Virus record (IMG/VR): IMGVR_UViG_3300021347_000012
Coordinates: 1-38,374 of that record
From: a virus
Length of the DNA stretch: 38,374 bases
Reading direction: 5' to 3' (one strand)
The notes beneath the pieces are model-generated. The model had not been told where the DNA came from. It made no database searches and saw only the letters and a list, made by a program, of their open reading frames with translations. The translations under genes were made by a program, and so were the position numbers. Shown here piece by piece: positions 3,801 to 35,437 of this stretch; position 1 is the first letter of the stretch, and each line of letters begins with the position of its first letter.

Positions 3801-4294
3801 CTACTTGCAATATTATGTTCTTGTGCTTTATTAATTCCATACTCAAAGTTTTGCGATGGTAAGTCTGTTGATGAAAATGTTTGTTGTGTTCCATTTACAT
3901 AAACTTTTACTCTATTTGTGTCAGTACCTTGTGTTGTATCTATTGCCACTACTATGTGCATCCAAGCACTAGGGTCACGAAAAATTGCATTTGTAACTGC
4001 TGTGTTTCCATCACCCCAAGTTAAAACAATGTTACTACTTGCTCCACTATCTAATCGAATACCAAAATGGTCATCTTCTGTTAAGTCACCTGCTACAGCA
4101 GTAAAAAATAACATATGCGTAGCACTACTGTTACTTCTTTTAATCCAAGCACTCCAAGTCCAAGTTCTACGATTACCTGCACTAGCAAAAGTCTTACTTA
4201 AATAAGCTGAATCATCATTATTAAACCTAAGACTCTGCTCTAACTCGTAGTCAGTAGCACCACTAGGTATTGCAGTTGATTGTATTAATGCCAT
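815..4294 (-). CDS. Large tail adhesin with LamG-like, SPRY-like and duplicated beta domains
   Basis: This 1159-residue protein is the best candidate for the main receptor-binding tail protein. Residues of about 18-180 look like a LamG/concanavalin-type jelly roll (SLRFNNDDSAYLSKTF, WTWSAWIKRS, VKVYVNGTQQ, YDGYLAEVNFIDG). A long unit (about 225-590) has the signatures GTGFQPDLVWIKQRS, FVAWNWDMGG and YTIGHGLSSAPEMIIVKAR. A middle section (about 640-790) looks SPRY-like (GKWYAEVVM, MIGLNDG, CTFYKNG). The long unit then recurs (about 850-1157) with GIGFQPDFTWIKMRS, YVAWNWKANGSGS and YWTIGHGLSEAPELIIAKNR. Thus the protein contains an internal duplication. It lies just downstream of the shaft-like fibre gene and upstream of a possible fibre assembly gene. 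Carbohydrate binding on the host surface is inferred from the folds. Confidence 0.85.
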   Translation of the reverse strand: MALIQSTAIPSGATDYELEQSLRFNNDDSAYLSKTFASAGNRRTWTWSAWIKRSNSSATHMLFFTAVAGDLTEDDHFGIRLDSGASSNIVLTWGDGNTAVTNAIFRDPSAWMHIVVAIDTTQGTDTNRVKVYVNGTQQTFSSTDLPSQNFEYGINKAQEHNIASRVIYGASGNYYDGYLAEVNFIDGQALTPADFGETGDYGEWKPKEYSGTYGTNGFYLPFKQDYTVEGFSTVTYKGNGGTQYIGGTGFQPDLVWIKQRSNADSNVVFDAVRGVHKRLVTDSTASEADWTSVDKGLDVFSSDGFIVKDDSVGNYSVNRNGGTFVAWNWDMGGSNATNTDGSITSTVRANPTYGQSIVSYTGIGDADQAYTIGHGLSSAPEMIIVKARTESGKSWQVYHEGVDASSPQNYRLKLNETAARETQSTGNSWQNTAPTNSVFTVGNGSWVNENTKAFIAYCFHSVTGYSAFGSFSGTGNLAGPSVTLGFKPAFVLIRKTNGGADWLIFDSTRNPTNEVRSFLEPNTTDAETIEQTTNYELGIDFDSNGFQIKARGGGMNGNGDNYIYMAFADKREYAYWLDQSGNNNDWTSNNLTESDISVDSPTNNFATMNPNNPIFTGKTLSEGNLKVSGSTVNQVGANGTIYINSSGKWYAEVVMTENAGGQPMIGLNDGTNTLGNRGLIFYNDGRKGQNGGYVTYGSNTSWTTGDIMGIAYNGDDNGGECTFYKNGVSLGVAYTNLNTALGDTFTFTCQNNASGTTTFIWNFGQDSSFAGNKTAQGNQDGNSIGDFYYTPPTGFLALCTKNLPDVDVVPSEHFNVKLYNGNGSNKNVSGIGFQPDFTWIKMRSASMDHMLMDAVRGATKNLYSNGTDAEGSIGLTSFNSDGFTTQSNVKVSTSGGNYVAWNWKANGSGSSNTNGSITSTVSANVDAGFSIVSYSGATNATVDSSNNSGNYWTIGHGLSEAPELIIAKNRGSGGWYVGSDFLGSTPWTSGSHLVLNSTAATANNANMLWGNAAPNSSTFKVGGWDVINRNGNTYIAYCFHSVDGYSKVGKLHGNSADDGTFVYTGFKPKMVMWKNTEASANWFIMDSERNEGGNAGNPIRSYLHPNSSAAENWVGTSGILDFTSNGFKYRASNNSSYNFDYDYIFIAFAETPFKYSNAR

Positions 4295-4297
4295 ATA

Positions 4298-5320
4298 TTA
4301 GGTGTAGATTGCTGAGTTAGTCATATAAACATTTGTGCCATCTGAGAAATAAGACAGTAAATAAGTACCTGCTGTTGATACTGTAGACAATAAGTTAGCA
4401 TCGACTTTAGTGTTAGCGTGTGCTGATACTGTGTGTCCACCTGAGTTGACAAGAAGTATGTTTCCAGACTGAGCAACAATGTTTGTAAAGGTTAGTGTGA
4501 AGTTACCTGTCGGTGTACATTTAAAGTTGTTAGTATCTGACATACTGAATGAGCCATCATTGTCTGTAGTAACTGTTCCTACTGCGTTAGCTGATACTGT
4601 AACTGTGCCTGTTATAGTTCCACCTGCTTTAGGTAAGGCTGCGTTTGCAGTTGTTGTTGTACTCGTTAGTACAGCATCTCTTGCACCTACATCTACTCCA
4701 TCAAATGTAGAGTTAGTGGTAATAGCACCAGTCATTGCACCACCAGACTTAGGTAAGGCAGCATTAGCTGTAGTATTGGCTGTTACACCTGTGGCAATAT
4801 CGGTGTTGATTGAGTTGGCTAGTTTATCTGCTGTTACATTATCGTCTGCAATCTTAGCTGTAGTGACTGCATTATCTGCAATAGTTAGTGCTGTAGCACC
4901 TGTCACATCTCCTGTGTGAGTAGCGTTAGTTACTTTGGCTGTATTTGCTGCAATCTCAGTATTAATAGAGTTAGCTAACTTGTCTGCTGTAACCGCATCG
5001 TCAGCAATCATTCCTGTTTCTACTGCACCTGAGGCAATAGTTAGTTCTGTTGCTCCTGTAACATCACCAGTATGTGTAGCATTAGATGTCTTAGCGGTGT
5101 TAGCAGCAATAGCTGTATTAATTGCATTAGCTAGTTTAGCCTCAGTAACCGCATCATCTGCAATCTTAGCTGTTGAGATAGAGCCATCGGCAACTGATAC
5201 ACCTGCTAGTAGGTTTGTGGCTGTTACTTTCTTAGAAGTACCAGAGTCATTAATTAATAGTTCCTCACTACCTGCTAATGAGGTTTTTGCTGCTAAGGCT
5301 GATACTTTAGTTGTTGCCAT
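4298..5320 (-). CDS. Tail fibre shaft protein with tandem repeats
   Basis: A 340-residue fibre protein. Residues 48-152 hold two near-identical repeats of 52-53 residues (IADDAVTEAKLANAINT... and IADDAVTADKLANSINTE..., each followed by NATHTGDVTGAT), and a third degenerate copy runs into two ALPKSGG/ALPKAGG segments. Such repeats are typical of trimeric phage fibre shafts. The C-terminus (about 250-340) is a beta-rich domain with NFTLTFTN and a final YLLSYFSDGTNVYMT stretch, common at the end of marine phage fibre proteins. It lies 3 bp from the large adhesin gene, so fibre and adhesin are probably assembled together. Confidence 0.85.
   Translation of the reverse strand: MATTKVSALAAKTSLAGSEELLINDSGTSKKVTATNLLAGVSVADGSISTAKIADDAVTEAKLANAINTAIAANTAKTSNATHTGDVTGATELTIASGAVETGMIADDAVTADKLANSINTEIAANTAKVTNATHTGDVTGATALTIADNAVTTAKIADDNVTADKLANSINTDIATGVTANTTANAALPKSGGAMTGAITTNSTFDGVDVGARDAVLTSTTTTANAALPKAGGTITGTVTVSANAVGTVTTDNDGSFSMSDTNNFKCTPTGNFTLTFTNIVAQSGNILLVNSGGHTVSAHANTKVDANLLSTVSTAGTYLLSYFSDGTNVYMTNSAIYT
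4865..5179 (-). repeat. Tandem coding repeats in fibre gene
   Basis: Two adjacent units of about 156-159 bp encode fibre residues 48-100 and 101-152. They share the blocks AKIADDAV/GMIADDAV, KLAN.INT.IAANTAK and NATHTGDVTGAT. The DNA has diverged at third positions, so this is an old duplication; a third degenerate unit follows to about 4720. Confidence 0.75.
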
Positions 5321-12748: not shown

Positions 12749-12762
12749 TGTCACCGGTGACA
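12749..12762. promoter_or_regulatory. Palindrome copy 1 (TGTCACCGGTGACA)
   Basis: A perfect 14-bp palindrome, 31 bp upstream of the -35-like box of the rightward promoter. It is one of eight copies in the window. Position upstream of a promoter would suit an activator or a remote operator. Confidence 0.85.
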
Positions 12763-12793
12763 GACTCTAGAAAATTATTTTTATACGATTCTG

Positions 12794-12820
12794 TTTACAA
12801 GGCGTGCACTTATGTATAAT
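12794..12820 (+). promoter_or_regulatory. Rightward early promoter
   Basis: A perfect -10 TATAAT at 12815-12820 follows TTTACA at 12794-12799 (spacer 15) or the overlapping TGTTTA two bases earlier (spacer 17). The expected start is near 12827. It drives the first rightward gene. Confidence 0.65.
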
Positions 12821-12850
12821 GAACTCATCTTAAGCGGGATTGCTTAGGAG

Positions 12851-12873
12851 CCTAGATAGACAAAATATCTAGG
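12851..12873 (+). promoter_or_regulatory. 5' UTR hairpin of the first early gene
   Basis: CCTAGATA and TATCTAGG form a perfect 8-bp stem around a 7-base loop, lying between the predicted transcription start and the ribosome binding site (AAGGAA at about 12890). It could stabilise the mRNA or be an RNase III or protein target. Confidence 0.6.
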
Positions 12874-12900
12874 AATTACAATAACTTACAAGGAAATACA

Positions 12901-13473
12901 ATGAAAAATAAAATGACAGACCAACAACAAATAGCGAGCTTTATTGATACTTTAGGTAACATCCGCAAGGCAGAAGGACAAGTCACTGAGACCCTGAAAG
13001 CTGTAGCAACTAACACTAAGTTTAAGGGTGTGTTTCTTAAGGAAATGAATAAGCAACTCACTACACTAGAGAACGAAGAACTCAAGGAGTTTAAAGGACG
13101 CATTCACAAGATGCAGAAGCTCATCGCTAAGAAGAAAACTCAGGAATCTATCTTGACCGCTAGAGATAACGCGGAGCCTGATACTCATCACTACACTATA
13201 CGCCTAGTCAATGATAAAGACATCACTGAAAGGGGTACTCACAAGGAAGCTGATAGGGGTAAATTGAGAGAATTCTGCTTAGTCAAGCCGGAGCCTGAAG
13301 CTAAGAAAGAAAAGACTCTATTGGAAGTCATAGGAGACTGGCAAGAAAAGGCATTGGGAGATGATTCCACAATGTCAAAGGATGATTACGAAGGACAATT
13401 GCACGATGCTAAAGCTCATCTACTGCTAGAGACTGCAACTATCCCATTCAAGAAGCCGGAGGATAGAAAGTAA
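12901..13473 (+). CDS. First early gene, unknown charged helical protein
   Basis: A 190-residue protein I do not recognise. It is highly charged and mostly helical, with a predicted coiled region (FLKEMNKQLTTLENEELKEF, then KMQKLIAKKKTQES), a middle with HHYTIRLVNDKD and an acidic/basic C-terminus. No cysteines arranged as a metal site, no clear helix-turn-helix and no membrane segment are seen. It has its own promoter, 5' hairpin, Shine-Dalgarno (AAGGAA) and intrinsic terminator, so it is a separate transcription unit. Copies of the TGTCACC palindrome flank it on both sides. First-expressed phage genes often encode host take-over factors or regulators; that is an inference from position. Confidence 0.8.
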   Translation: MKNKMTDQQQIASFIDTLGNIRKAEGQVTETLKAVATNTKFKGVFLKEMNKQLTTLENEELKEFKGRIHKMQKLIAKKKTQESILTARDNAEPDTHHYTIRLVNDKDITERGTHKEADRGKLREFCLVKPEPEAKKEKTLLEVIGDWQEKALGDDSTMSKDDYEGQLHDAKAHLLLETATIPFKKPEDRK

Positions 13474-13490
13474 ATCACCGCAACCTAAAG

Positions 13491-13517
13491 AGCCCGGGTT
13501 TATCCCGGGTTTTTTTT
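13491..13517 (+). terminator. Intrinsic terminator after first early gene
   Basis: CCCGGG (13493-13498), loop TTTAT, CCCGGG (13504-13509), flanked by two further weak pairs and followed by eight T residues. This is a textbook Rho-independent terminator 18 bp after the stop codon. Confidence 0.92.
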
Positions 13518-13528
13518 CGTCTAAAGTT

Positions 13529-13542
13529 TGTCACCAGTGACA
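13529..13542. promoter_or_regulatory. Palindrome copy 2 (TGTCACCAGTGACA)
   Basis: One-base variant of the palindrome (A for G at the centre). It lies between the terminator and the next promoter, 16 bp upstream of the -35 TTGACA at 13559. Confidence 0.85.
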
Positions 13543-13558
13543 GATTATTGGTTAGCTG

Positions 13559-13587
13559 TTGACAATACCAAAGCAATAAATTATTAT
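13559..13587 (+). promoter_or_regulatory. Sigma70 promoter for the small early genes
   Basis: TTGACA (13559-13564), a 17-base spacer and TATTAT (13582-13587) match the consensus very well. Transcription would start near 13594, which excludes the TTG at 13587 as a start codon of the next gene. Confidence 0.85.
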
Positions 13588-13619
13588 TGGCACAAATCAA
13601 CAACAGACCCGGAGGTCAT

Positions 13620-14219
13620 ATGCAAAAAGTAAGAATCGGAGAGAAGGAATATTCTAGGACAGTGATTAAGAATAATATCCTTAAGGTATACAAAGTATCT
13701 GCAGATTATGAGCGTAATGATTGGTATAGAGAAGCTCATAATTTTGGCGTTGAGGTGTCTAGCTTTATGAAGTCATTCCGAAAGTATAATATCACCGTAA
13801 ATCAAGTTCTAGGCGTTGTGAGTGCCTTGTCTCCACTTAAAGAGTGGGAGAAAAACAAGGAGATTGCAGTTGACTTTATTTTGACAGGTGATTGCGGACA
13901 TATGGGAGCCAACAAGCGTAAAGCTAGGAAGATTTTAGATTGCGATGGCTCCGACTCTAAAATACTGGAGATTCTAAGCGGTCCGAAGACATCACGCTTT
14001 TATATGAATATGATGTACCCGGATGGAACCGGGGTGACAGTGGATAGACACGCGATTGCAATTGCTATCGGTCGGACCGCAACAGATAAAGAGCAGTCTC
14101 TAACACCTAAAGCCTATGAATTCATAGAAAAGTGTTATACAATGACCGCTGAAACATTAGGACTGGACCCGTTACACCTCCAGTCTATAACGTGGCAGAC
14201 TTGGAAGCGTATCAAATAG
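13620..14219 (+). CDS. HhH-GPD (DNA glycosylase)-like early protein
   Basis: The start is the ATG at 13620, which has GGAGG 4 bp upstream; a longer TTG-start version would begin before the predicted transcript start. The 199-residue protein contains VVSALSPLKEWEKNKEIAVDF, then KARKIL, and a key region LSGPKTSRFYMNMM followed by VTVDRHAIAIAIG. The order GxKT...VDRH parallels the hairpin and catalytic loop of endonuclease III-type glycosylases (GRKTA...VDTH), with Lys about 120 and Asp about 140 in equivalent places. There is no iron-sulphur Cys cluster at the C-terminus. I recall similar uncharacterised phage proteins. Base-excision or DNA-binding function is an inference from this motif only. 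Confidence 0.7.
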   Translation: MQKVRIGEKEYSRTVIKNNILKVYKVSADYERNDWYREAHNFGVEVSSFMKSFRKYNITVNQVLGVVSALSPLKEWEKNKEIAVDFILTGDCGHMGANKRKARKILDCDGSDSKILEILSGPKTSRFYMNMMYPDGTGVTVDRHAIAIAIGRTATDKEQSLTPKAYEFIEKCYTMTAETLGLDPLHLQSITWQTWKRIK

Positions 14220-14221
14220 TT

Positions 14222-14235
14222 TGTCACCGGTGACA
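14222..14235. promoter_or_regulatory. Palindrome copy 3 (TGTCACCGGTGACA)
   Basis: Perfect copy starting 2 bp after the stop of the glycosylase-like gene and ending 13 bp before the Shine-Dalgarno hairpin of the next gene. No convincing promoter follows it. Confidence 0.85.
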
Positions 14236-15427: not shown

Positions 15428-15683
15428 ACTAGCACAGGTATATGAAGACACAAAACTACTGTACTTTGTGACTGACGGAGAAGGCAACTGTATGCTAGAC
15501 AATGTCACTCAGGCTGACGCATACATATATGCTATGAAGAATGGTTGGTCTGTCGGTAGACACGATTATGTGTCACCGGTGACAGATTATGAGCCCAATC
15601 CTGACTTACCTTTTTATAATGACGATGGCACTGCTATCACTTATGAGAACAAAGACATACTTAATGAGGAGGATTTACAATGA
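15402..15683 (+). CDS. Hypothetical 93-residue protein carrying a palindrome copy
   Basis: The protein has LLYFVTDGEGNCMLDNVTQADAY and an acidic, Pro-rich C-terminus. The palindrome at 15571-15584 is translated in frame as V-S-P-V-T (residues about 57-61), between a Gly/Trp segment and the acidic tail. Not recognised. Overlaps the upstream coiled-coil gene, and its end overlaps the next start (ATGA). Likely soluble. Confidence 0.7.
   Translation: MHKKPLISRLAQVYEDTKLLYFVTDGEGNCMLDNVTQADAYIYAMKNGWSVGRHDYVSPVTDYEPNPDLPFYNDDGTAITYENKDILNEEDLQ
15571..15584. promoter_or_regulatory. Palindrome copy 4 (TGTCACCGGTGACA)
   Basis: Perfect copy inside the 93-codon gene, read there as VSPVT. Followed by GATTATGAG, which partly recurs after copy 5 (ATTATGAG). 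Confidence 0.85.
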
Positions 15684-16413: not shown

Positions 16414-18049
16414 CCCCTCTACGTTTGTAGAACACAAGCCCTGCCCTGCCTGTAGAGATACAGGTGGGGACAGAGCAGGTGATAACCTAGCTATCTATTC
16501 TGATGGTCACGGTTATTGTAATGCCTGTGGTCACTATGAGAAAAGTGTCACCGGTGACAAACATTATGAGGAGGAAACATTTATGCAAACAATTACACCG
16601 AGAGGTGTGGCTAATGCGTCAATTAAGGACAGACGCATATCATCTAACATAACATCTAAGTTTGGTGTCACTGTTAGTTACGACAAGACCGGTCAGATAG
16701 AGAAACATTACTATCCATACTACGACTCTAACGAGAGCAATAGGCTCCTCGGATATAAAGAGAGAACTGTCGCAACTAAAGAGTTTCAGATTATTGGAAC
16801 GAACAAAGGCTCCGGGCTATTCGGACAGAACGCTAACCGCTCCGGTGGTAAGTATCTGACTATCTGTGAAGGCGAAATTGACGCCCTCTCGATTTCAGAA
16901 ATGTTCGATGGCAAGTGGCAGGTGGTCTCCCTAAAGAATGGGGCGTCTTCTGCGTCACGAGATATCAAAGACAATCTAGAATACATAGAGTCTTTCGATA
17001 ATGTAGTGCTTTGTTTCGACCAAGACCAAGCCGGGTTCGATGCGGTCAAAGCCTGTCAAGATATTATATCTGTCGGCAAGCTCAAGGTTTGTAAGCTACC
17101 TATGAAGGACGCTAGTGATATGCTAGTGAACGGAAAGGTTAAAGAGTTTACTAATGCTTGGTGGTCTGCTGAGTCTTATACTCCTGCAGGTATCATCAGA
17201 GGTAAGGATACTTGGGAACATCTACTTAAGGATGAAGACTTACTTACTATTGACTATCCGTGGCAAGGTCTTAACACTTTGACTTATGGATTCAGAGCGA
17301 AAGAGCTAGTAACTATCACCAGTGGCTCAGGTATGGGCAAGACCAGTGTCGTTAAGGAATTGGAGTCTTACATACTGAACAACACTGAGGACAACCTAGC
17401 TATCATTCACTTGGAAGAATCTATCGAGCGTACTGTTAAGGGTCTGATGTCTATCGAAGCCAATGCTCCTATCCACATACCTCAGTACGAAAGAGAGCTG
17501 AGTGATGCGGACAAGAAAGCACTGTGGCAGAAGTCAGTAGGCGACAAGAATGTATTCTTCTATGACCACTTCGGTAGTATGTCTGAGGACTCACTACTTA
17601 ATGTGATTAGAACGTATGCTAAATCCTATGATTGTCAGTGGATTGTACTGGACCACTTGTCTATCGTAGTCAGTGACCAAGACGGTATAGCTGACGAGCG
17701 TAAGGCAATTGATGCCATTATGACTAAGCTCCGCAAGATAGTACAGGAGACTGGCGTAGGCTTATTCCTTATATCTCATCTTAGGAGACCTCAAGGTAGG
17801 GCTCACGAAGAAGGTGGACAGGTGAGCTTATCAGAGCTTAGAGGTTCCGCAGCAATTGCTCAGTTGTCTGACATTGTAATAGGCTTGGAGCGTAACCAAC
17901 AGGACGATGACCCTATCATCCGTAACCAAACAACACTACGGGTTATAAAGAATAGGTTCTCAGGTCTGACTGGTCCCGCTTGTAAGCTACAGTATGACAG
18001 TGACACCGGAAGATTGACGGAGGTAGATGATGAACACAGCTTTTTTTGA
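16385..18049 (+). CDS. Primase-helicase (T7 gp4-like)
   Basis: A 554-residue bifunctional protein. Zinc-binding domain: CPAC (residues 20-23) and CNAC (45-48). TOPRIM primase: CEGEIDALS (about 161) and CFDQDQAG (about 211). RecA-like helicase: Walker A GSGMGKTS (about 317-324), HLEES, Walker B WIVLDH (about 427), ISHLRRP and LSELRGSAAIAQLSD, then an acidic tail ending in FF. It unwinds duplex DNA and makes primers for the polymerase. The start overlaps SSB by 29 bp; GTG at 16397 is an alternative start. The palindrome at 16546 encodes VTGD just after the zinc domain, in the interdomain linker. Confidence 0.95.
   Translation: MLRLVSSSHNPSTFVEHKPCPACRDTGGDRAGDNLAIYSDGHGYCNACGHYEKSVTGDKHYEEETFMQTITPRGVANASIKDRRISSNITSKFGVTVSYDKTGQIEKHYYPYYDSNESNRLLGYKERTVATKEFQIIGTNKGSGLFGQNANRSGGKYLTICEGEIDALSISEMFDGKWQVVSLKNGASSASRDIKDNLEYIESFDNVVLCFDQDQAGFDAVKACQDIISVGKLKVCKLPMKDASDMLVNGKVKEFTNAWWSAESYTPAGIIRGKDTWEHLLKDEDLLTIDYPWQGLNTLTYGFRAKELVTITSGSGMGKTSVVKELESYILNNTEDNLAIIHLEESIERTVKGLMSIEANAPIHIPQYERELSDADKKALWQKSVGDKNVFFYDHFGSMSEDSLLNVIRTYAKSYDCQWIVLDHLSIVVSDQDGIADERKAIDAIMTKLRKIVQETGVGLFLISHLRRPQGRAHEEGGQVSLSELRGSAAIAQLSDIVIGLERNQQDDDPIIRNQTTLRVIKNRFSGLTGPACKLQYDSDTGRLTEVDDEHSFF
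16546..16559. promoter_or_regulatory. Palindrome copy 5 (TGTCACCGGTGACA)
   Basis: Perfect copy inside the primase-helicase gene, read as S-V-T-G-D-K in the linker after the zinc-binding domain. The reading frame differs from that of copy 4. Confidence 0.85.
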
Positions 18050-19847
18050 TATAGAAACTGATGGACTCAACGCTACCAAAGTACATTGCATTTGTGCGAT
18101 GCTTGATAATGGTGAGTCTACTGTTTACAATTTTATAGGAGGAGAAGCCAATGGACTTTTTAGAAAATGGTTGGCATCGGAGGATGTTGACACTCTTGTT
18201 GGACACAACATTATTAATTTTGATATTCCTGTTCTGCGTAGGGTTACTGGGATGGATTGGTCTTTTAATTTACGGGACACTCTCGTACTTTCTAGACTAC
18301 ATAACCCTAGCCTTGATGGTGGGCACAGCCTGAGGTCTTGGGGTGAGAGGTTAGGTAACTACAAGGATGACTATCAAGGTGGTTGGGAAGAGTATAGCCA
18401 CGAGATGTTACAGTATTGTCAACAAGATGTACGAGTAACTAGAGCCTTGTATCACCATCTTGTCACCAGTGACAAAGATTCTCCCGCAGTAGAGATAGAA
18501 CACAGAACTGCGGACATCATAAGAGAGCAGACCGACAACGGTATGATACTCAATGAGGAGCGTGCTTATGAACTGCTCGCTGAGATGAAGGAGAAGGTAC
18601 TAGACATAGAGGATGAGGTACACGAGAGATTTAAACCTCTGCCTGTGTGGGTAGACTTGCCACATCCCGGTGATAAGACTCACAACAAGGATGGGAGCAT
18701 ATCTAAAAGATATCAAGCACAGTTAGATAAAGGTGCACACTGGTTAGATGAGGGTGATGAGATAATTGATATAGATAATGACTGGGGATACAAGAAGTGG
18801 GGATACTACGACTACCCGGAGTTTAACTTAGGCTCCCGCCAACAGATAGCTAAGTATCTACAGCACTTCGGTTGGAAACCTAAATCATTTACTGAGAAGG
18901 GCAACCCTATCGTAGATGAGAAGGTACTTAAGACTGTTAAGATACCCGAAGCACAATTGATTGTAGATTACCTCACATTGACCAAGCGTATAGCTATGGT
19001 AAAGAGTTGGGTAGATGCAATAGATGAGCGTACTGGTCGAGTACACGGTAGGGTAAACCCTTGCGGTGCTGTGACTGGTAGGATGACACACTCTAAACCT
19101 AATTGTGCTCAAGTCCCTGCGACTAAGCACGACAAAGATGGTAAAATACTTTGGGGTTTTGAGGGTGGCTATGGAGCTGACTGTCGTAACCTGTGGACCG
19201 TGCCTGATGGCTACAGTCTAGTAGGTTGTGACGCTAGTGGACTAGAACTTAGAATGCTCGCCCACTATATGAATGATGAAGCATACACTAACGAGATACT
19301 CAACGGTGATATACACAGTGCTAATCAGAAGTCAGCAGGACTACAGACTAGAGACCAAGCCAAGACTTTTATCTATGCTTTCCTTTACGGAGCAGGAGAT
19401 GGTAAGATTGGTGAGGTAGCAGGAGGTGGTCCGAAGCGTGGTCGTATACTTAAGAAGAACTTTCTTGACAATACTCCCGCATTAAAACACTTGCGTAGTA
19501 AGGTTGCAGACTCCAGTAAGAAGGGGTGGGTGACAGGACTAGATGGTAGAAAGCTACACATACGCTCAGAACATTCAGCACTTAATACTCTATTGCAGAG
19601 TGCAGGTGCAGTTGTTATGAAGAAAGCGTTGGTGCTACTAGATACATATGCTAAGCAGTACAACATAGACTATAAGTTTGTACTAAATGTGCACGATGAG
19701 TTTCAGTGTGAGGTCAGAGATGACCAAGCTGATTTCTTCGGTGGTCTAGCGGTAGGAGCTATCATCAAAGCAGGTAAATCTTTTAACCTAAACTGTCCAT
19801 TGGACGGTGAATATAAGGTAGGTAGAACGTGGCAACAGACACACTAG
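18027..19847 (+). CDS. DNA polymerase, family A, with 3'-5' exonuclease (T7 gp5-like)
   Basis: About 606 residues; tandem ATGs at 18027 and 18030, with GGAGG at 18019. Exonuclease motifs: FFDIETDG (8-13), LVGHNIINFDIP (about 57-68), YCQQDVRVTRAL (about 130-141). Polymerase motifs: A LVGCDASGLELRML (Asp about 401), B RDQAKTFIYAFLYGAGDGKIG (about 442-462, close to T7), C NVHDEFQCE (about 553-561). The motif B residue equivalent to E. coli Pol I Phe762 is Tyr, as in T7. No N-terminal 5' nuclease. It overlaps both neighbours by about 20 bp. Palindrome copy 6 encodes LVTSDK after exonuclease motif III. Confidence 0.97.
   Translation: MMNTAFFDIETDGLNATKVHCICAMLDNGESTVYNFIGGEANGLFRKWLASEDVDTLVGHNIINFDIPVLRRVTGMDWSFNLRDTLVLSRLHNPSLDGGHSLRSWGERLGNYKDDYQGGWEEYSHEMLQYCQQDVRVTRALYHHLVTSDKDSPAVEIEHRTADIIREQTDNGMILNEERAYELLAEMKEKVLDIEDEVHERFKPLPVWVDLPHPGDKTHNKDGSISKRYQAQLDKGAHWLDEGDEIIDIDNDWGYKKWGYYDYPEFNLGSRQQIAKYLQHFGWKPKSFTEKGNPIVDEKVLKTVKIPEAQLIVDYLTLTKRIAMVKSWVDAIDERTGRVHGRVNPCGAVTGRMTHSKPNCAQVPATKHDKDGKILWGFEGGYGADCRNLWTVPDGYSLVGCDASGLELRMLAHYMNDEAYTNEILNGDIHSANQKSAGLQTRDQAKTFIYAFLYGAGDGKIGEVAGGGPKRGRILKKNFLDNTPALKHLRSKVADSSKKGWVTGLDGRKLHIRSEHSALNTLLQSAGAVVMKKALVLLDTYAKQYNIDYKFVLNVHDEFQCEVRDDQADFFGGLAVGAIIKAGKSFNLNCPLDGEYKVGRTWQQTH
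18461..18474. promoter_or_regulatory. Palindrome copy 6 (TGTCACCAGTGACA)
   Basis: One-base variant inside the polymerase gene, read as L-V-T-S-D-K between exonuclease motif III and the following helix. Confidence 0.82.
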
Positions 19848-24087: not shown

Positions 24088-24220
24088 GGCTAACAAAACT
24101 TGGGGTCTCGTCCGTATGGATGGGACTTCCAAGCTATACTACAAATTAAAGAGTGACAAGAAATCTGTCACCGGTGACAAAGTTAATCCAAGACTTTGGC
24201 GAACTGACTGGAGGAAGTAA
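24071..24220 (+). CDS. 49-residue basic protein carrying a palindrome copy
   Basis: The frame starts at an ATG inside the end of the holin-like gene and ends exactly one base before the next start. The protein is basic (MSLKTKANKTWGLVRMDGTS, then LYYKLKSDKKSVTGDK and LWRTDWRK) and soluble. The palindrome at 24166-24179 is read as SVTGDK, the same frame as in the primase gene. No known family. Confidence 0.6.
   Translation: MSLKTKANKTWGLVRMDGTSKLYYKLKSDKKSVTGDKVNPRLWRTDWRK
24166..24179. promoter_or_regulatory. Palindrome copy 7 (TGTCACCGGTGACA)
   Basis: Perfect copy inside the 49-codon gene, 41 bp before the GTG start of the following nuclease-like gene. Confidence 0.85.
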
Positions 24221-24655
24221 GTGAACGAGAATAAAGTTATTAAAGCACTTAACAGTATGAAGTATAACTTTGAACCTATGGATGATAGGTTCTCAAGGTA
24301 CGATGCTTTTGATAAAGAGCACGGGATTATGCTAGAGATTAAGTGTAGGAATAAACACTACCCCGACACATTAATAGAGAAGATGAAGTATGATTGGAAC
24401 AAGAACTTTGCAGAGGAGAACAACTTAGAGTTTTGGTACGCAGTATCAATGCCTAACAAACCCGGCAGTCATACAATATATATCTTTGACCCCGCTAATT
24501 TAGAATCAGACGAAGACGGATATGATTTTAAGTGGCACATAAAAAAACTCCCAGAGAACACAGAGTTCAAAGGGAGTCAATGGATAGACAAAGAAGTTGG
24601 TTATCTACATATAGATGATTGTCTAATATCTTTTGAAGAACGTACTAATCATTAG
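24221..24655 (+). CDS. Small PD-(D/E)XK nuclease-like protein
   Basis: 144 residues from a GTG start at 24221 with GGAGG upstream. The segment RYDAFDKEHGIMLEIKCRNKHY has the spacing of a D...ExK nuclease core (Asp about 27, Glu about 38, Lys about 40). The rest is beta-rich (FWYAVSMPN, HTIYIFDP) with an aromatic C-terminus, as in small phage endonucleases and VRR/Holliday-type folds. It is the last rightward gene; its stop overlaps the end of the converging leftward gene by 11 bp. Enzyme activity is inferred from the motif. Confidence 0.6.
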   Translation: MNENKVIKALNSMKYNFEPMDDRFSRYDAFDKEHGIMLEIKCRNKHYPDTLIEKMKYDWNKNFAEENNLEFWYAVSMPNKPGSHTIYIFDPANLESDEDGYDFKWHIKKLPENTEFKGSQWIDKEVGYLHIDDCLISFEERTNH

Positions 24656-34757: not shown

Positions 34758-35437
34758 TATTGGTAATTAGTAGTTACAAACCATTCGTTTTCATATTGAG
34801 TGTTTCCACTGTCTAACATAACTGCTTGTGCTAAAGAGCTTGCTGCTTCTTGTGCAGCTATAGAAGATTGTGTTCCTCCATCTTCTCCACGCTCTGCAAT
34901 TGCACGAGCATAAGCACCTAAGATTACAGGCTTAGACGGTATTTTAATACTTGTAGTAGCTGACGTTAATTCGTCTTGATACTTAACTATATCAAAAGAT
35001 ATTGTCTGTGCTTCTGTAGGTATAGGAGATAAATCTACTTTAAGATTATTAGAACTATCTGCCCCGTTAAAAGCATAGTAACTAGGTTCTCCTGTAGGGT
35101 CGGTAGGATACTTAATACTGTTTATGTAATGTTGTGTCACCGGTGACAAACTATTACCAGTAGAATTGTTAGTTACGTCTAACACTTTAAATTCTTGACC
35201 GGAAGATAAATTGTAATTCTTTGTAGCTGCTACAGTAGAAACATTAACTGTCTCTCTTAGAACTAACCAATCGTGGTAAGACTCTATACTTCTCTTAGCG
35301 TCGTTAATTAAAGAGCCTATAACTTTCTGATAGTCATTCACTGTAGAACTATCGTTAATAGCCCCAGACCAATCAGAAGCTACTGTGTCTTCTCTTAGTC
35401 TTATTAATACTTGATTTATTAGTTCTCTGTATGTCAT
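34757..35437 (-). CDS. Tail tubular protein A-like (adaptor, T7 gp11-like)
   Basis: The start is the ATG at 35437 (AGGGGAAATAATG on the minus strand: Shine-Dalgarno plus overlap with the previous stop), giving 226 residues; a longer frame upstream is not needed. It begins MTYRELINQVLIRLREDTV and has LINDAKRSIESYHDWLVLRE, the usual N-terminal helices of gp11/gp4-type adaptors, a beta-rich middle and PVILGAYARAIAERGEDGG. It connects the portal to the nozzle. Palindrome copy 8 falls within the gene and encodes SPVT. Confidence 0.85.
   Translation of the reverse strand: MTYRELINQVLIRLREDTVASDWSGAINDSSTVNDYQKVIGSLINDAKRSIESYHDWLVLRETVNVSTVAATKNYNLSSGQEFKVLDVTNNSTGNSLSPVTQHYINSIKYPTDPTGEPSYYAFNGADSSNNLKVDLSPIPTEAQTISFDIVKYQDELTSATTSIKIPSKPVILGAYARAIAERGEDGGTQSSIAAQEAASSLAQAVMLDSGNTQYENEWFVTTNYQ
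35135..35148. promoter_or_regulatory. Palindrome copy 8 (TGTCACCGGTGACA)
   Basis: Perfect copy in the adaptor gene on the opposite arm, 11 kb from copy 7 and the only one in the leftward genes of this window. Read on the minus strand as L-S-P-V-T-Q, the same frame as copy 4. Confidence 0.85.

Follow-up and report, generated by a model that had tools for sequence, protein, structure and literature searches.

An early gene coupled to dispersed, type-switching palindromes in apparently lytic phages: a putative stoperator-like system

In a group of related phages, the first early gene is strictly coupled to a short palindrome repeated across the genome; gene and palindrome switch type in concert, and copies of the palindrome that lie in coding regions are conserved. 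The gene product, a protein of 190 aa (g190), likely binds the palindromes, although physical binding is inferred and we have no binding data. In our overall reading, g190 is the cognate palindrome-binder of a stoperator-like system that provides early shut-off and immunity to superinfection by phages of the same type. We hold this reading with a probability of roughly 0.6; binding, dimer formation, transcription block and immunity are all inferred. Taken separately, the part that makes g190 a repressor or roadblock with type-specific immunity, a function that is likewise inferred, could as well be wrong as right.

The source sequence is the virus record IMGVR_UViG_3300021347_000012, analyzed at its full length of 38,374 bp and called the window here. 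Its gene layout is divergent. The minus strand carries the late genes, for terminase, portal, major head protein and tail, in two blocks: one extends leftward from about 12.4 kb, and the other covers the stretch between about 24.6 kb and the end. Early genes (ssDNA-binding-like, primase-helicase, polA-type DNA polymerase, Cas4-like exonuclease and ribonucleotide reductase) occupy the plus strand between the late blocks. No integrase, repressor or RNA polymerase gene was found among the window genes searched, and no lysogeny gene either; this uncultured phage and its relatives appear to be lytic. The closest DNA polymerase from a cultured phage is that of Pelagibacter phage HTVC103P (47.5% identity). 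The host is unknown, and a marine setting is likely, as inferred from the relatives. The last early gene (24221-24655, 144 aa), which has palindrome site 7 (see below) closely upstream, contains a D...ExK-like stretch, the encoded sequence being YDAFDKEHGIMLEIKCRNKHY. It had no match in PHROG or Pfam, and it is possibly a PD-(D/E)XK nuclease.

The window contains eight exact copies of TGTCACCRGTGACA, seven of them in the early region, where random sequence with matching dinucleotide composition would be expected to give about 0.01, and near-misses do not exceed background. The sites are perfect 14-bp palindromes, except for an A at the centre of some, and have no strand. Site 1 (TGTCACCGGTGACA, 12749-12762) precedes the -35-like box of g190 by 31 bp, and site 2 (TGTCACCAGTGACA, 13529-13542) falls between the terminator of g190 and the promoter that follows. 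Site 3 (14222-14235) is directly 3' of a DUF7178-family gene on the plus strand (13620-14219). The open reading frame of that gene could alternatively begin at TTG 13587 (13587-14219); ATG 13620, which is preceded by GGAGG, is the likelier start. The remaining five sites are inside coding sequence, far from promoters: site 4 (15571-15584) in a 93-aa early ORF (peptide VSPVTD), site 5 (16546-16559) at residue 54 of the primase-helicase in a linker past the Cys-rich N-terminal stretch (SVTGDK), site 6 (18461-18474) at residue 145 of the DNA polymerase (LVTSDK), site 7 (24166-24179) in a 49-aa ORF near the end of the early region (SVTGDK), and site 8 (35135-35148) in a tail-protein gene of the late region. 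Across most of the early region the sites are spaced at about 0.7-2 kb. A role as RNA hairpins was rejected, because the 2-nt centre is unable to form a loop.

The g190 gene (12901-13473, plus strand) is a real ORF, conserved with 79-95% identity in six close contigs and with about 35-43% identity in an additional set. A sequence-only reading had described it as a gene with its own promoter, an 8-bp hairpin in the 5' UTR, a strong intrinsic terminator and flanking palindromes. Every element was found at its position, the two palindromes being exact and lying 31 bp before TTTACA and 16 bp before TTGACA. Some of its points need qualification. The promoter of g190 (promoter 1, 12794-12820, plus strand; TTTACA at 12794-12799, 15 bp, TATAAT) counts merely as promoter-like on account of its 15-bp spacer, which also kept it off the promoter scan list; the -10 box is nevertheless conserved, and its TGTATAAT is well conserved among relatives. 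Promoter 2 (13559-13587, plus strand; TTGACA at 13559-13564, 17 bp, TATTAT) was strong in the scan (11/12, 17-bp spacer). Moreover, the arrangement had been described as typical of a regulatory gene under the control of its own sites. This held only in part, as both flanking palindromes lie clear of the promoters and five of the eight copies are intragenic.

The g190 leader holds two stem-loops on the plus strand rather than one: a 9-pair stem (12828-12849), overlooked in the sequence-only reading, and the 8-bp hairpin noted there (12851-12873). Together they fold with a z score of -4.5, and they covary between lineages, with 11 of 17 pairs altered on both sides. Rfam gave no match for them. 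The tandem stem-loops, present at 12821-12900 of the window and in relatives, may be an mRNA-stability or regulatory element. The terminator (13487-13515, plus strand) folds at -18.3 kcal/mol, and its stem differs in sequence between lineages with pairing retained; the scan tool missed it, probably because the stem runs into the T-run.

The sequence-only reading would have been refuted by related phages having the palindromes without the gene. We looked for this case in 53 contigs from a TerL-anchored scan that span the junction between TerS and the early genes (TerL about 85-100% identical where present), and found none. All 36 contigs with palindromes carry a member of the g190 family (palindrome types A, B and C) or of the g7 family (type D; 168-200 aa) in an early position beside the palindromes, the 17 contigs without such a gene have no palindromes, and the gene without palindromes occurs in 0 of 53. 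A further small ORF comes before the family gene in L139/L140 and L136. The contigs are metagenomic, many of them fragments, and several of the gene-less ones are short beyond the junction. Genomes lacking both the gene and any site come as near as 98% TerL identity. No other early gene was common to all palindrome-bearing contigs yet missing from the rest. The DUF7178 protein and an 81-aa ORF (g3) were rejected as binders, since each is missing from some palindrome-bearing genomes and g3 is also present in the palindrome-less L175. In the parts examined of the control genomes HTVC103P and CRP-125, neither the gene nor a repeated palindrome was found.

Because near sites travel with the gene, sites far from it are the real test of linkage. 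We set the boundary at 200 bp beyond the gene and considered contigs with 1.2 kb or more of further DNA. The near and far types were identical in 20 of 21 gene-bearing contigs, and the nine contigs without the gene had no sites. Only L149 departed from this, with type A sites close to the gene and a single type C site at a distance. Tree-independent pairs are few (at most five per type); sign tests miss 0.05, and no pair is opposite.

Among the relatives, gathered by searches with g190 and with the primase, we found four palindrome types: A (TGTCACnnGTGACA), B (TGACACnnGTGTCA), C (GTTCACnnGTGAAC) and D (GTTAAAnnTTTAAC). Read from the centre outwards, the half-sites of A and B are one base apart (GTGACA, GTGTCA), and those of C and D share the outer three bases (GTGAAC, TTTAAC). 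Close relatives keep the palindromes of the window in position, and other lineages hold TGACACnnGTGTCA, GTTCACnnGTGAAC or GTTAAAnnTTTAAC at those positions. Near-identical phages (TerL 98%) can differ in type, and the TerL tree shows 22 changes of type. Of the 243 sites in all contigs, 231 agree with the majority type of their contig (shuffled mean 136, maximum 149). The sites cluster in the early region, with 143 in 223 kb, whereas the TerL side has 0 in 172 kb. The sites in the primase and polymerase linkers follow the type, so that the encoded peptide varies (VTGD, DTGV, FTGE, VKHLTF); in genomes without the gene there is no palindrome at these linkers, and the linker sequence is unrelated. 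In type A contigs, the 14-bp primase site is invariant in six distinct rows and the polymerase site varies at the central G/A only, both with more variable flanks. These two palindromes sit at permissive linker positions. One or two off-type sites occur in some genomes (L149, L028, L036 and L104), and odd sites occur in ten contigs; these odd sites, and a late-region site of type A found in one genome of type D, are likely traces of recombination. The latter site corresponds to site 8 of the window, which is possibly passive.

Two further cases bear on the pairing of protein and palindrome. L210 was found only via its protein, in a search with the g7 profile (38% identity), and is an unrelated, otherwise different virus of 30% GC. 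Its palindrome, GTTAAGnCTTAAC, occurs four times in the record, with one copy about 80 bp upstream of the gene; GTTAAGACTTAAC, with four copies in the record, precedes this family member. The g190/g7 family, which we define by an early gene beside repeated palindromes of its own type, is thus found in L210 as well as in 36/36 junction contigs. The other case, L076, encodes a chimeric protein, A-like over residues 36-130 and B-like over residues 131-190 (73%), and its palindromes are type A, which suggests that palindrome specificity follows residues of about 36-130. It is possible that this part of g190 tracks the palindrome type and that residues 131-190 are an exchangeable C-terminal part; this rests on a single natural chimera, and binding is inferred. 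Apart from this, the C-terminal residues 144-178 of the L210 protein (3914-4474) have a weak match to the MvaT xenogeneic silencer family (E 0.013), which is a lead only. In L210 and in most type D genomes that are long enough, a gene of about 170 aa (g8 family; e.g., L080 6230-6745, L210 4524-5027) lies directly 3' of the family gene. It had no match in Pfam and could be an enzyme, given its conserved C..V.....AFD and GH motifs.

The g190 protein had been described as unknown and highly charged, and both descriptions held: K, R, D and E account for 70 of 190 residues (net charge +2), and no match was found in Pfam, PHROG or NCBIfam or to PDB folds. In the AF2 model of g190 (pLDDT 83.7), the central stretch that tracks specificity comprises a long helix (58-76), a shorter one (78-87) and a unit of two strands; the models were built on shallow alignments. 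Foldseek with two models gave no match in PDB and one match to a viral model (A0A516M4L5, E 1.8e-3). Neither the profile searches nor these comparisons with PDB revealed an HTH family or another recognizable DNA-binding domain. No ParB-family match was obtained for g190 or the other genes searched, though palindromes are present, no nuclease motif or match was seen in g190 or g7, and no defence family matched g190. By hhalign the g190 and g7 families are related (E 4e-5), as are type C members to A/B (2e-6), and the models of the two families agree in the predicted succession of helices and strands. Neither tblastn of 50,697 phage records with g190, g7, the type C protein and the proteins of L149 and L210 as queries nor searches of bacterial and archaeal genomes with g190 and g7 profiles gave a match. 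Family members had only weak matches in PHROG, Pfam, NCBIfam and PADLOC, which were not relied on; Csx21 weakly matched one type B protein (4e-4). From the absence of matches we infer that g190 belongs to a previously undescribed protein family of unknown fold. We found neither an earlier description of the g190-palindrome system nor a demonstration of direct g190 binding in the literature searched.

The sequence-only reading had named g190 the leading candidate for the palindrome-binding or host take-over factor. The former is supported by the coupling and the type switching, with binding itself inferred; the latter found no support. Direct binding is the best explanation because one early protein pairs with dispersed, exactly conserved, type-switching palindromes. 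In the mechanism that we propose, g190 would be a sequence-specific DNA-binding protein, probably a dimer, which is made first during infection and occupies the palindromes by its own promoter, by the next promoter and within the downstream replication genes. Bound g190 would most likely block transcription and so silence the gene that encodes it along with the early genes of the same genome, and it would do the same to the early genes of an incoming phage of the same type. A transcription block fits the data because the sites concentrate in the early genes, by the first two promoters and within the primase and polymerase genes. Lineages have swapped gene and palindrome type repeatedly, which fits selection to escape the repressor of another phage; repeated switching among near-identical phages suggests, by inference, selection to differ from competitors. 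Several points speak against this reading. g190 has no recognizable DNA-binding domain, the flanking sites are off the promoters, so that repression of initiation in the classical manner is not evident, some genomes have off-type sites, independent tree pairs are few, and near sites are linked to the gene. In addition, immunity would have to act in lytic infection, because no lysogeny gene was seen.

Other explanations of the same data can be considered. The palindromes may be bound by g190 for DNA organization or segregation, in the manner of bridging by ParB, Noc or SlmA, or as genome marks. Dispersed, exact and unoriented palindromes, many of them intragenic, resemble parS and Noc sites, which is no more than a lead, and the spacing through most of the early region would suit such a role. 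However, the sites are concentrated in early genes and nearly absent from late genes, a ParB-like domain was not found, and fast type switching at 98% TerL identity suits conflict more than housekeeping; we regard this possibility as unlikely but not excluded. It also seems improbable that g190 acts as an activator or antiterminator and depends on the palindromes for early expression. As the product of the first early gene it would be in place for this, and sites 1 and 2 could be used by an activator, which is not excluded. However, the five coding-region sites are not adjacent to promoters, and about one third of the related genomes manage without the system.

There is still less to be said for a host transcription factor that binds the palindromes, with the type mirroring the host and the g190 module as a passenger. 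No host is known, and phages that differ in type could also differ in host, but this explanation is opposed by the strict coupling in 53/53 contigs, the independent case of L210, the L076 chimera and the gene-less genomes without sites at 98% TerL identity. More remote still is the possibility that gene and palindromes form a selfish or antagonistic module, such as a nuclease, or the guide of one, directed against rival genomes with the palindromes as self-marks. The module is indeed dispensable, swapped and type-specific; however, g190 and g7 show no nuclease motif or match and no defence-family match was found, and the eight self sites would need sparing.

Some gene-less relatives contain repeats of other kinds. 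L170 has two clustered, iteron-like arrays in opposite orientation (CTATTAAG/CTTAATAG), at roughly 31-143 and 3728-3832 bp downstream of the start of TerS (reverse complement), and these may belong to another regulatory or replication system that replaces the g190 system. The leader of L130 has five tandem 11-bp repeats (GGGACTAAGCA) at about 362-415 bp after the TerS start (reverse complement). The L170 arrays, the L130 tandem and a two-copy palindrome in L147 were rejected as equivalents of the g190 palindromes, as they are clustered or too few and of a different kind.

To return to the proposed stoperator-like system, what is new here is a protein family of unknown fold with at least five palindrome specificities, and near-identical phages of different type offer a natural series for the joint change of regulator and site specificity. 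DNA sites here dictate the sequence of linker peptides in essential replication proteins. The system is a testable explanation for mutual exclusion of co-infecting, probably marine phages. A bolder reading is that a new DNA-binding family provides these seemingly lytic phages with an exchangeable immunity specific to type, in which the linker palindromes would let a resident phage silence the replication genes of a same-type newcomer and frequency-dependent selection would drive the joint switching; we lean slightly against it at present.

Parts of this arrangement can be recognized in known systems. ParB-parS, Noc and SlmA sites are exact dispersed palindromes tolerated within genes; the g190 system differs in having no ParB-like domain found and in sites that are mostly early and differ between near-identical phages. 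The early protein p4 of phi29 binds inverted repeats and switches early transcription in a lytic phage. Its sites are few and promoter-proximal, with none known to be dispersed in genes, whereas g190 sites are dispersed and intragenic, and the two proteins are unrelated as far as is known. Immunity repressors of the lambda type have symmetric operators near their own gene, and heteroimmune types are swapped as a module. The g190 system likewise combines symmetric sites near the regulator gene with module-wise type swapping, and the half-site TGTCACC of the window is loosely similar to the lambda half-site TATCACCG. However, operators of the lambda type are few and overlap promoters, whereas g190 sites are dispersed and off promoters (31 and 16 bp upstream of -35), and g190 has no HTH family match.

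The cluster A mycobacteriophages, such as L5 and Bxb1, have a repressor and stoperators (PMC6550527, PMC9283540). L5-type sites are 13 bp, asymmetric and oriented with transcription, lie in promoters or short intergenic spaces, and block transcription, and the repressor is a monomer with an N-terminal HTH in temperate phages (PMC6550527, PMC9283540). The g190 system is unlike these in its symmetric 14-bp sites, about half of them intragenic (5/8 in the window, at linker positions), and in that no HTH-like match, no Rep homology and no lysogeny gene were found. What the two have in common, if g190 binds as inferred, is a single phage regulator with many dispersed, genome-specific sites, most of them off promoters, and site sequences that differ among related phages together with the specificity or gene variant of the regulator. 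Thus, heteroimmunity based on dispersed operators is known from temperate mycobacteriophages, and a comparable arrangement is seen here in phages that appear to be lytic.
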